Shown here: piece by piece, positions 16,991-40,025 of the stretch
Layout of the letters: each line of letters opens with the position of its first letter
How positions within the stretch are numbered: the first letter of the stretch is position 1
Source: Micromonospora echinospora
GTDB lineage: Bacteria > Actinomycetota > Actinomycetes > Mycobacteriales > Micromonosporaceae
Reading direction: 5' to 3'
Assembly (NCBI RefSeq): GCF_014203425.1
Contig: NZ_JACHJC010000001.1
Coordinates: 7,061,867 to 7,125,866, forward strand
DNA: 64,000 nucleotides
The notes under the pieces: model-generated
The model's database searches: none
Told to the model about the DNA's origin: nothing
What the model saw: only the letters and a program-made list of their open reading frames with translations
Translations under genes and position numbers: made by a program

Positions 16991-17115
16991 GGTTACGAGC
17001 GCCAGCGTCAAGCCCCGGCTTGCTGGCCGGCAACCCTCGTCGAGGTTCGCGGTGGGGTGCCCCGGGTGATGACCGGGCCCAGCGCCGCTCCGCGTGCTGG
17101 GCAAGCGCGGACCCC
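16991..17115 (+). ncRNA. SAM-IV riboswitch
   Basis: The segment contains the conserved SAM-IV core almost unchanged: GCCAGCGTCAAGCCCCGGCT (17000-17019), the CTTGCTGGCCGGCAACCCTC strand that follows, GCGGTGGGGTGCCCCGGGTG (17049-17068), and the trailing GGGCAAGCGCGGACCC pseudoknot strand. The P1 stem forms between GGTTA at 16991 and the TGACC near 17070-17074. SAM-IV aptamers are known from actinobacteria, where they bind S-adenosylmethionine and switch off sulfur-metabolism genes. It lies 45 bases before a class V aminotransferase gene. Confidence 0.92.
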
Positions 17116-37272: not shown

Positions 37273-38292
37273 TCAGATCGTCAGCTGCCAGTCGACGGAA
37301 CCGGCGGCGGGGCGGAAGCCGAGCCGCTCGTTGATCGCGATCATGTGGCGGTTCGCCGCCGCGTTCCAGGTGTCGACGGCCCGCAACGCCGGTTCGTGCG
37401 CCAGCACGTACGCGAGGTTTCCGGCCTTGCAGAGCAGGCCGAGCCGGTGGCCGCGGTGGTCGGGGTCGACGAGGGTGATCTCCTGCCAGGCGTGGTCGGT
37501 GCTGCCCGCGTCCAGGCCGAGCTGGGTCCAGCCGACCAGCCTGCCGGTCGCCTCGTGCACCACGCCGGTGTTGTACCGGCGTACGCCCCGGGCATCAAGC
37601 GCCCGCTCCGCGTCCCGCACCCGCGCCGCGTCCATCTGCTCCGGCTCCCAGTCCAGCTCACCCATCGGCGCGTCGAGCAGCAGCCGGCCCTGGAGGTAGG
37701 CGACGTCCGCGACGTACTCCTCGGGGGTGTGGTCGCGCCACCGCACCGGCCGGTAACCGGTGGCCGCGGCGCGGGCCTCGGCCAGCAGCGCGCCCAGCTG
37801 GTCGCGGTCGAGCCCGGTCACGTCGAGGCGGCGGCGGACGTCGGCCAGCGCCGGTTTGGCGCCCAGGGCGGCGGCGAACGCGGCGCCAGGGAAGACCCGG
37901 TCCTCCTCGCCGGGCAGCGCGGCGGTGGTCGAGCCGACAAGGCGTTTGCCGCCGTGCTCGCGGAGCAGCCGCACGCCGTGCTCGTGCAGCACGCGGCCGA
38001 TGCCGCGCCGCCGGTACGCCGGGTCGACGGTCAGTTCGACGGTCGCGTTCTCGGTGTTCTCGATCGTGTGCAGGTGCAGCCGGAGCCAGCCCACCGGCAG
38101 GCCGTTCAGGCGGGCGACGAGCCAGCGTCCCTCGATGCCGGGCATCGGGTGCGACAGCGGCGCCTCGAACCGCCGCCGGCAGGGGGCGGGCAGGTCCGGC
38201 TCGTCGACGGCCTGGGCGGCGCACGCGACCCGGTACACCGCGTCGAGCGTCGGCCGGTCGGCCGGATCCAGCGGTGTCACGGTCGGCGTCAT
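37273..38292 (-). CDS. Two-domain GNAT acetyltransferase
   Basis: 339 residues with two GNAT halves: the first has VELTVDPAYRRRGIGRVLHEHGVRL (acetyl-CoA loop), the second has ITLVDPDHRGHRLGLLCKAGNLAYVL and ends in AANRHMIAINERLGFRPAA. Such double GNATs are frequent in actinobacteria and mostly uncharacterised. ATG 38292 is chosen; the frame upstream crosses a hairpin and an RNA-like region and is not part of the protein. It lies 27 bases downstream of a candidate RNA gene and could be read through from it. Confidence 0.85.
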   Translation of the reverse strand: MTPTVTPLDPADRPTLDAVYRVACAAQAVDEPDLPAPCRRRFEAPLSHPMPGIEGRWLVARLNGLPVGWLRLHLHTIENTENATVELTVDPAYRRRGIGRVLHEHGVRLLREHGGKRLVGSTTAALPGEEDRVFPGAAFAAALGAKPALADVRRRLDVTGLDRDQLGALLAEARAAATGYRPVRWRDHTPEEYVADVAYLQGRLLLDAPMGELDWEPEQMDAARVRDAERALDARGVRRYNTGVVHEATGRLVGWTQLGLDAGSTDHAWQEITLVDPDHRGHRLGLLCKAGNLAYVLAHEPALRAVDTWNAAANRHMIAINERLGFRPAAGSVDWQLTI

Positions 38293-38318
38293 GTCACCCA
38301 GGGTGCGCCGGAGACAGC

Positions 38319-38349
38319 GAAGAGGCCAGCGGTTTCCGCTGGCCTCTTC
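38319..38349 (-). terminator. Perfect 14-bp hairpin terminator with a three-base loop
   Basis: GAAGAGGCCAGCGG (38319-38332) pairs without mismatch to CCGCTGGCCTCTTC (38336-38349). In the minus-strand reading it ends the RNA gene described next; it lies 27 bases before the GNAT start. Confidence 0.9.
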
Positions 38350-38436
38350 GGACGTTGGTCGGGAGGGACGTCCGCACAACGCCTCCGGCGTTGGGTCGCA
38401 AGAACTTGAAAAGTCTCCGGCGGATGCCCTCCCGCA
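38319..38436 (-). ncRNA. Candidate structured small RNA (about 118 nt), new to me
   Basis: On the minus strand a -35/-10 promoter ends just before this segment, and it closes with a perfect terminator hairpin. The body folds as a multi-branch RNA: a long P1 (38427-38434 with 38360-38367, continued by 38420-38426 with 38369-38375 after one bulged base), a 7-bp triloop hairpin (38377-38393) and a 4-bp hairpin (38404-38414). No protein frame across it is convincing. It sits between thrC and a GNAT gene. I do not recognise the family; an attenuated leader for the GNAT gene is the alternative. Confidence 0.65.
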
Positions 38437-38442
38437 CGAAGC

Positions 38443-38471
38443 ATCTTGCGCCGTCCGGTTCCTGCCGTCAA
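38443..38471 (-). promoter_or_regulatory. Promoter of the candidate RNA
   Basis: TTGACG (38466-38471) and CAAGAT (38443-38448) on the minus strand with a 17-base spacer. The expected start falls near 38436, at the first bases of the P1 stem. Confidence 0.65.
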
Positions 38472-38589: not shown

Positions 38590-39879
38590 TCAGGACAGCA
38601 GGTCGGCGTCCCGGGCGGCGCGCAGGGACGGCTTGATGCGGTGGGTGGGCCCGACCTGCGCGGCCACCGCGTCGAGCGTCTTCAGGCCCTCGCCGGTGTT
38701 GAACACGACAGTCTCGGCGGACGGGTCGAGCCGGCCCGACTCGACCAGCTTGCGCAGCACCGCGACCGTCACGCCGCCCGCCGTCTCGGCGAACACCCCG
38801 GTGGTACGGGCGAGCAGCCGGATGCCGTCACGGATCTCGTCGTCGTCGGCGTAGTCCATCCAGCCGCCGGTGCGCCGCACCGCCTCCAGCGCGTACAGCC
38901 CGGCTGCCGGGTCGCCGATGTTCAGCGACTTGGCGATGCCGGTCGGCTTGACCGGCGTGATCGTGTCGGTGTCGCCGTGCAGCGCGGTGGCGATCGGGTT
39001 GCAGCCGGCCGACTGCGCGCCGAACACCTTCCAGCCGCCGGCCGGTGCCTCGACCAGCCCGATCTCGACCAGCTCGGTGAACGCCTTGTCGATCTTGGTG
39101 AGCAGCTCGCCGCTGGCCATCGGGATGACCACCTGGGCCGGGATCCGCCAGCCGAGCTGCTCGGCCACCTCGTAGCCGAGCGTCTTGGAACCCTCCGCGT
39201 AGTAGGGCCGGACGTTCACGTTGACGAACGCGGTGTCCTCGAACTCGTCGGTCTCCACCAGCTCGCCGCAGAGCCGGTTAACGTCGTCGTACGAGCCGTC
39301 GATGGCGACCAGGTCACCGCCGTAGACAGCGGTGGTGACGACCTTGCCCTGCTCCAGGTCGCCGGGGATGAAGACGATCGACGGCACCCCGGCCCGGGCC
39401 GCGTGCGCGGCGACGGAGTTGGCGAGGTTGCCGGTCGACGCGCAGGCGTACCGGGTGAAGCCGAGCTGCCGGGCCGCGGTGAGCGCCACCGAGACGACCC
39501 GGTCCTTGAACGAGTGGGTGGGGTTCGCGCTGTCGTCCTTCACCCAGAGCGGGGCGCTGAGCCCCAGCTCGGCGGCGAGGTGCGGGGCGGCGACGAGCGG
39601 GGTCAACCCCGGGTCGAGCGTGACCCGGGTGGCCGGGTCCTGACCGGCCGGCAGCAGGGCCGCGTACCGCCAGATGTTGGCCGGGCCGGCCTCGATCTGC
39701 TCACGGGTGACGGCGGCCAGCGCGGCGGTGTCGTAGTCGACCTCCAGCGGCCCGAAACACTCGTAGCAGGCGTGCTGGGCGGCCAGCGGGTAGCGCGCCG
39801 AACAGGCACGGCAGACCAGGGCGCGGGCCGGGCTGAGGGTGGTGTCGATGCCGGTTTCGGCGGGAAGCGTCGACGTCAT
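38590..39879 (-). CDS. thrC: Threonine synthase
   Basis: 429-residue PLP enzyme converting O-phosphohomoserine to threonine. An N-terminal zinc ribbon holds Cys23, Cys26, Cys38 and Cys41 (CRAC and CYEC); the PLP lysine is Lys125 in HSFKDRVV; ASTGNLANSVAAHAARAG and the C-terminal TVVFNTGEGLK follow. It is a stand-alone copy without thrA or thrB. A SAM-I riboswitch lies in its leader, linking its expression to methionine/SAM status, since phosphohomoserine is at the branch to methionine. The N-terminal zinc ribbon is an extension not present in all ThrC. Confidence 0.95.
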   Translation of the reverse strand: MTSTLPAETGIDTTLSPARALVCRACSARYPLAAQHACYECFGPLEVDYDTAALAAVTREQIEAGPANIWRYAALLPAGQDPATRVTLDPGLTPLVAAPHLAAELGLSAPLWVKDDSANPTHSFKDRVVSVALTAARQLGFTRYACASTGNLANSVAAHAARAGVPSIVFIPGDLEQGKVVTTAVYGGDLVAIDGSYDDVNRLCGELVETDEFEDTAFVNVNVRPYYAEGSKTLGYEVAEQLGWRIPAQVVIPMASGELLTKIDKAFTELVEIGLVEAPAGGWKVFGAQSAGCNPIATALHGDTDTITPVKPTGIAKSLNIGDPAAGLYALEAVRRTGGWMDYADDDEIRDGIRLLARTTGVFAETAGGVTVAVLRKLVESGRLDPSAETVVFNTGEGLKTLDAVAAQVGPTHRIKPSLRAARDADLLS

Positions 39880-39890
39880 GTCGAGGATTT

Positions 39891-40025
39891 CCTCTCATCT
39901 TTCCCCGCATCGCCGGGTGCGGCGGGGACGGAATTGGCACCTGCCCGCTGTCGCTCGTCGTCGAGCGTGCGGGTGGTTGCCGGGGCGTCGTCGGGCCGTA
40001 TCCCTCAGCCCCTCTGGATGAGGTA
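39891..40025 (-). ncRNA. SAM-I (S-box) riboswitch
   Basis: Read on the minus strand: CCTCATCCAGAGG, then GGCTGAGGGATACGGCCCGA, ACGCCCCGGCAACCACC, a variable arm, AGGTGCCAATTCCGTCCCC and the closing GGGGAAAGATGAG. P1 pairs CTCATC (40018-40023) with GATGAG (39894-39899). These are the conserved S-box elements. The aptamer ends 12-15 bases before the thrC start, so it probably controls ribosome access directly. Confidence 0.95.

Follow-up and report, generated by a model that had tools for sequence, protein, structure and literature searches.

A candidate stand-alone structured RNA gene with an encoded CCA end, spread through the Micromonosporaceae

A candidate structured RNA gene lies on the minus strand of a 64,000-nt stretch of Micromonospora echinospora DNA (GCF_014203425.1, contig NZ_JACHJC010000001.1, forward-strand positions 7,061,867-7,125,866), referred to here as the window. 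Read from 38471 to 38319, it runs through a -35 element, 17 bases and a -10 element into an RNA domain and closes with a perfect 14-bp hairpin (Table 1). Comparison between loci showed that it has a conserved fold and its own conserved, predicted promoter, is independent of both neighbouring genes and lacks coding capacity. The gene is spread through the Micromonosporaceae, as judged from sequence matches, and is found in nearly all sampled Micromonospora genomes and in many related genera. We consider it probable (about 0.6) that it is a stand-alone small RNA gene whose product acts in trans as a ribonucleoprotein that is read at the terminal helix and CCA end.

Table 1. Features of the RNA gene and its flanking genes, in window coordinates.
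Feature	Position	Strand	Basis or remark
-35 element TTGACG	38466..38471	-	read in the sequence; CTTG conserved across rows
-10 element CAAGAT, within the longer conserved GCA-RGAT-GCT	38443..38448	-	read in the sequence; conserved
Conserved RNA domain (terminal helix P1/P2, two inner hairpins, 3' GACCAA)	38355..38437	-	fold, covariation, row conservation
P1, 5' strand CGGGAGGG	38427..38434	-	partner 38360-38367 in the predicted fold
P3 arm, variable	38397..38419	-	predicted fold; elsewhere often longer, loop CUUGGYRACAAU in other genera
P4 hairpin, 7 bp, triloop GGA	38377..38393	-	predicted fold, covariation
P1, 3' strand CCCUCCCG	38360..38367	-	predicted fold; last seven bases 0.90-0.98 (anchored rows)
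Unpaired 3' tail ACCA, directly after P1	38356..38359	-	CGACCA conserved
14-bp hairpin with AAA loop, likely terminator without U-tract, genus-level	38319..38349	-	perfect stem, 15 bp including the outer C-G
CACCCT, possible -10 of the GNAT gene (leaderless)	38300..38305	-	7 nt before ATG, moderate conservation
Downstream neighbour, GNAT acetyltransferase gene (outside the RNA gene)	37273..38292	-	PF00583; ATG at 38292
Upstream neighbour, PLP enzyme gene, putative thrC (name from the first-pass annotation; outside the RNA gene)	38590..39879	-	PF00291; stop at 38590

The promoter described in the first-pass annotation, TTGACG-N17-CAAGAT on the minus strand, was found exactly at its place, with a spacer of 17 bases. 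Across 169 distinct rows, CTTG at -36 to -33 was conserved at 0.89-1.00 and the spacer mostly at 0.5-0.8, while GCA, GAT and GCT of the -10 region reached 0.91-0.99, 0.91-0.99 and 0.90-0.92. Rows from outside the genus (n=78) had the same conservation islands with a weaker second half of the -35 element (CTTG 0.83-1.00, the following AC 0.59, GCA/GAT/GCT region 0.79-0.97). Consensus scans of the RNA locus called no sigma-70 site. The RNA promoter is close to the promoter consensus (-35 nTGACn, -10 TAnnnT) that the available part of a study on Actinoplanes (PMC7682106) gives, differing from it at the -10, which begins with C rather than T. Transcription by RNA polymerase carrying the main sigma factor would begin at about 38437. 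A start near 38436 had been proposed; the region held, and for the exact base, spacing and purine preference make G38437 or G38435 more likely than U38436.

Each part of the fold that had been drawn from the sequence (a bulged P1, a 7-bp triloop hairpin and a third helix) was recovered in its place. In the predicted fold, a GC-rich helix closes a three-way junction. The folding energy of the 118-nt segment 38436-38319 is -66.4 kcal/mol, compared with -43.2 kcal/mol for shuffled sequences (sd 3.6, n=200; z -6.5), and none of the 200 shuffles was as stable. In the predicted folds of 132 distinct RNAs, at least nine end-to-end pairs formed in every case; two hairpin loops were present in 129 and three in the other 3, and z was below -2 in 129/132. 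Compensatory changes in the stems, suggested earlier as a check, were indeed present: the junction alignment (37 sequences) contained 96% standard pairs and changes on both sides in 8/25 pairs (37 such cells), values reached in 0/500 shuffles, with a significance that may be inflated by the relatedness of the sequences. This alignment (A1) comprises 37 of 44 clusters and leaves out L094, L104, L105, L108, L110, L116 and L119. With the partner strand displaced by 1-3 columns, the share of paired cells dropped to 33-53%.

The 5' end of P1 carries CGGG in all rows read, and the bases that follow show compensated variation in L155, L158, L159 and L227. The outer helix CGGGGAG/CUCCCCG replaces CGGGAGG/CCUCCCG in L155, L158 and L159, such that the outer P1 pairs are changed on both sides, and those of L227 are likewise changed on both strands. 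Inner helices differ in L094, L119, L162, L220, L223, L224 and L227. The compensated outer helices of L155, L158 and L159, together with the differing inner helices, also argue for a conserved fold. The interior is not fixed, the length from start to CCA ranging from 76 to 147 across rows; CCGGAGG (P4) occurs in 100/132 distinct RNAs and a CUUGGYRAC-type loop of the P3 arm in 33/132. An inner GUCGAGCAGCGCCAGC is common to L223, L224 and L227, which represent three genera and have RNA bodies that are otherwise different.

The features that stay the same across lineages are the promoter, a terminal helix that opens with CGGG/CCCG, and purine-CCA at the 3' end; the interior is rebuilt between genera. 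Conservation is concentrated in islands (-35, GCA-RGAT-GCT, RNA start and RNA 3' end), and similarity drops right past CCA(A). The rows were anchored on the 5' motif [TC]GCGGG[AG]GG and on CCA, which makes nearby values conditional on the anchors; the 5'-anchored rows, and with them the 132 distinct RNAs, omit L155, L158 and L159 (3/193 loci scoring at least 22 bits), which were read separately, and one row lacks the 3' end owing to a contig end. At the 3' end, CCUCCCG and ACCA were conserved at 0.90-1.00 (169 distinct rows, anchored on both ends), and a near-constant block CCUCCCGACCA spans from the helix into the tail. CGACCA was present in 118/118 first-extracted loci as well as in L155, L158 and L159, all of which had been identified through similarity or synteny. 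In g12, three sequences carry GCCA, with G replacing the A; their helix has gained a C-G pair, and CCA is retained. In g6 and g13, the bases that follow CGGG in the helix are swapped with compensation and ACCA is unchanged. CCA is encoded in every RNA locus read to its 3' end.

The perfect 14-bp hairpin noted at the end of the segment is present at 38349-38319, and the consensus scan of the RNA locus found no U-tract terminator. A stem of at least 9 bp within 30 nt of the tail was detected in 90/91 distinct genus rows and in 13/77 non-genus rows; a separate earlier count placed the end hairpin in 77/78 genus loci. It is also kept in genus rows without GNAT, and its stems vary in sequence between rows. 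Judged by these comparisons, the broadly conserved part ends at CCA (38356) and the end hairpin is mainly a feature of the genus.

A 191-base query gave matches, of differing lengths, in 159/160 Micromonospora genomes. The sole miss (G113) had no covariance-model match either; its thrC stops 67 nt before a contig end, and its absence from the count is possibly an assembly gap. Within the Micromonosporaceae, blastn matched the element in 131/250 genomes and 22/44 genera; carriers include Actinoplanes, Plantactinospora, Couchioplanes, Pseudosporangium, Virgisporangium, Rugosimonospora and Spirilliplanes. Among 40 blastn-negative family genomes, the covariance model (R1) matched 13 at E <= 0.001 and 21 at E <= 1; three of the weak matches (L164, L165, L168) also adjoin thrC, the remaining weak ones being candidates. 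In the model searches, RNA matches at E <= 0.001 numbered one per genome. The genus-wide matches, together with the covarying pairs, place the locus beyond chance.

Searching for thrC gave matches in 25/30 genomes, and reading downstream of the gene revealed divergent RNA elements in 7/25 (L217-L219, L220, L223, L224 and, farther away, L227). A further locus (L221, genome G162) has an element about 570 nt from thrC, and one (L207) was cut. No element was found within 420 nt of thrC, or by pattern in the fetched 4.2 kb, at ten loci of the family (L208-L216, L222), so the RNA is not universal in the family. At six thrC loci of other families, no element was seen within 420 nt or by pattern (L226 and L231 were shorter). 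The promoter pattern occurred in 6/10 family genomes compared with 0/70 genomes of other families of the order. Across the class it matched 8/296 genomes (3 of the genus, 5 others; reversed control 2), and in the five non-genus matches CTCCCGACCA, the RNA 3' end, was absent from the next 170 bases. R1 gave 45 matches over 298 genomes of the order, all within the own family. This search used strict filters with 15 candidates scored per genome and missed at least nine own-family genomes, some of which have the element, so that its silence in other families weighs little. A match in Actinomadura soli, of only 14 bits and without thrC, was rejected as chance.

Rfam 15 (4227 families) contained none that scored above its gathering threshold over the RNA region; at E up to 10 there were four matches, the best (E 0.18) on the opposite strand. 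Eleven loci of other genera gave only SAM riboswitches and sub-threshold matches. The scans thus rule out a known RNA family and agree with the first-pass annotation, which did not recognise one. Among the matches listed, titles and abstracts of the open-licence literature included no description of this RNA. That no convincing protein frame crosses the region was borne out by the RNA lengths, which are spread evenly modulo 3 (16/17/16 among 49 distinct genus sequences) and show that the region is not protein-coding. On the same grounds, a leaderless small protein from GTG 38437 was ruled out; frames from the first codon are open in 84/118 loci, by chance. Comparison supports an own promoter and independence of the neighbours, and we place the RNA in a new family of its own among the stand-alone small RNAs of bacteria, a kind already known.

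Neighbouring genes were scored at 164 distinct loci, excluding L155, L158 and L159; four of the 164 were cut, and at 35 exceptional loci ORFs were chosen by length and third-position GC. Both thrC and GNAT lay within 400 nt in 126/164, thrC without GNAT in 25/164, GNAT without thrC in 5/164 (two of these have thrC at 451 and 519 nt) and neither gene in 3/164. In 152/164, thrC was located at most 400 nt upstream on the same strand and the downstream side either had been read for 700 nt or more or held a GNAT; three more were cut downstream. At L065, a GNAT homologue 71 nt after the RNA has its middle deleted and matches residues 1-44 and 267-339 only; this locus was removed from the class of thrC without GNAT (26 to 25). 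GNAT is more than 1.1 kb away at L079 and L088, and at L079 an opposite-strand transposase-like ORF (identified by eye), about 16-930 nt past the end of the RNA 3' match, splits the RNA from GNAT. The RNA adjoins an aldehyde dehydrogenase-type gene, the next gene after GNAT in the window, at L018, L032, L035 and L120, and convergent ORFs at, for example, L092, L108, L110, L178, L183 and L184. At L028 and L041 it is found in another context, with thrC not adjacent.

The Rfam covariance scan also placed a SAM-I riboswitch ahead of the thrC-like gene (window 39892-40024, minus strand) and a SAM-IV riboswitch at 16991-17113 (plus strand), and hence two SAM switch classes inside one 64-kb window. 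A SAM match near thrC was obtained in 11/11 scanned family loci; the pairing of a SAM sensor with a gene of threonine synthase type is possibly worth closer study.

The region ahead of GNAT contains signals of its own. Conservation at -13 to -8 of the gene was 0.40-0.69 in 75 genus regions and 0.47-0.77 in 30 non-genus regions, and in the same regions a box GRAAATTCGGTCGCG at -44 to -32 had single positions mostly at 0.4-0.9. In Micromonospora, part of this box falls within the 3' half of the end hairpin, and the conservation of the box in this genus is therefore tied to that of the hairpin. CACCCT and the upstream box suggest that the GNAT message is probably leaderless and made from its own promoter. 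A repeated box of the type TAAWTCGSTCGCG is located before GNAT, 12-107 nt after the RNA (L082, L107, L095 and others); a strict pattern found it in 20/168 rows, and L089 has three near-copies. It is possibly the site of a regulator.

The annotation had left two alternatives, a free small RNA and an attenuator for the GNAT gene. A cis-acting GNAT leader, in which the fold beside the terminator sets read-through into GNAT, would fit the order of promoter, structured domain, hairpin and gene, and both neighbours lie close by at most loci (126/164). Such a leader, either attenuator or riboswitch, is nevertheless quite unlikely, since the RNA persists at loci that have lost GNAT or have a convergent gene next, and no constant same-strand gene follows it: loci without a near GNAT (25/164) or with neither neighbour (3/164) point to a free-standing RNA. 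The confinement of the end hairpin largely to the genus (90/91 against 13/77) likewise argues against an attenuator, as does the lack of a shared alternative structure, P1 ending at 38360 and the hairpin beginning at 38349 without common bases in the predicted fold and the ensemble centroid. The promoter-like CACCCT and the box at -44 to -32, moderately conserved and in the genus lying in the hairpin, also speak for separate expression of GNAT. The free small RNA thus gains support from comparison, the RNA and its promoter being kept without GNAT, with a convergent next gene and without an adjacent thrC. A point against a stand-alone gene is that thrC adjoins the RNA in nearly all loci, which fits a thrC-linked role too. 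The RNA could then be the processed 3' end of the thrC transcript, serving as stabiliser or thrC-linked regulator; the same-strand position of thrC within 400 nt (152/164) and the SAM riboswitch ahead of it in the window accord with this. We regard it as very unlikely, given that the RNA is preceded by a predicted promoter of its own, whose conservation forms islands as that of the RNA does, and that it persists at loci without an adjacent thrC (e.g. L028, L041).

Two further readings concern what the 3' end does. Other small RNAs are known to block ribosome-binding sites with C-rich seeds, and the near-constant block that runs from helix to tail could work in this way, with ACCAA as toehold and the CCUCCCG strand invading ribosome-binding sites of the form UUGGUCGGGAGG. 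Perfect 12-nt targets before a start codon, however, were found in 14/146 genus genomes compared with 34/146 in the reversed control, and among the matches listed none of these perfect targets recurred between genomes, a result that argues against a simple seed. In L155, L158, L159 and L227, moreover, another sequence takes the place of the CCUCCCG strand, with compensation; because the proposed seed is not constant, the odds of a base-pairing RNA were lowered slightly, and we hold it unlikely. The RNA could instead mimic an acceptor end, with a tRNA-Pro-like CGGG helix, then a purine, then CCA encoded in the gene. It would tune tRNA maturation either as an occupant or as a substrate of RNase P, CCA enzymes or prolyl-tRNA synthetase. 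RNase P reads purine-CCA. This reading is drawn from the presence of CCA in every RNA locus read to its 3' end as against 12/47 tRNA genes, and from its retention in g6, g13 and g12; the tRNA-Pro-like end (CGGG, C1-G72, A73) and the rarity of CCA in tRNA genes form its basis and are not proof, and we give it a small chance.

For the stand-alone trans-acting RNA, recognition is placed at the terminal helix and purine-CCA because every lineage read keeps these, and not a loop. In Micromonospora, the transcript would end at the hairpin and be about 118 nt long; in other genera, it would probably be trimmed or end near CCA. A protein partner would read the CGGG/CCCG helix end and the purine-CCA tail, and the inner arms would be free to vary, mainly closing the fold or carrying lineage-specific contacts. 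Fixed ends on a replaceable body point to a partner of this type. The gene would add an uncatalogued structured RNA across much of a family of antibiotic-producing actinomycetes, for which no small-RNA survey was found among the listed matches of the open-licence literature. Promoter, boundaries and covariance model make the RNA directly testable in culturable species.

Of the known systems, tRNAs and tRNA-like RNAs such as tmRNA and RNase P substrates share with this RNA an end made of a helix, one unpaired purine and CCA. A tRNA-Pro of the same genome starts with CGGG and has C1-G72 and A73 as in this RNA, and a predicted tRNA-Glu has C1-G72, A73 and CCA. CCA is encoded by 12/47 distinct tRNA genes of the genome; the 47 were taken from 30 fetched loci, and the whole genome gave 68 matches. 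The acceptor-type end is thus present, yet there is no cloverleaf, ARAGORN having reported 0 tRNA or tmRNA genes in the window. The compact junction after a promoter and before a hairpin resembles SAM-I and SAM-IV riboswitches, from which the RNA differs in having neither a constant downstream gene nor a switching overlap. 6S RNA, a rod with a central bubble, is similarly rich in helices and has its own promoter; the RNA described here, in contrast, is a three-way junction with a GC-rich closing helix, and 6S RNA was not matched in the Rfam scan. Ms1 binds core RNA polymerase and is longer than this RNA. Both are stand-alone actinobacterial small RNAs with conserved synteny, but in most species Ms1 has a HAD hydrolase gene as its neighbour, according to the available part of its description (PMC9130861), whereas the neighbours here are the PLP enzyme gene (thrC) and GNAT. 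The same part of that source reports Ms1 in Actinoplanes, Couchioplanes, Rugosimonospora, Spirilliplanes and Virgisporangium (PMC9130861), genera that also carry the present RNA, which indicates, as far as that account extends, that the two are separate RNAs.
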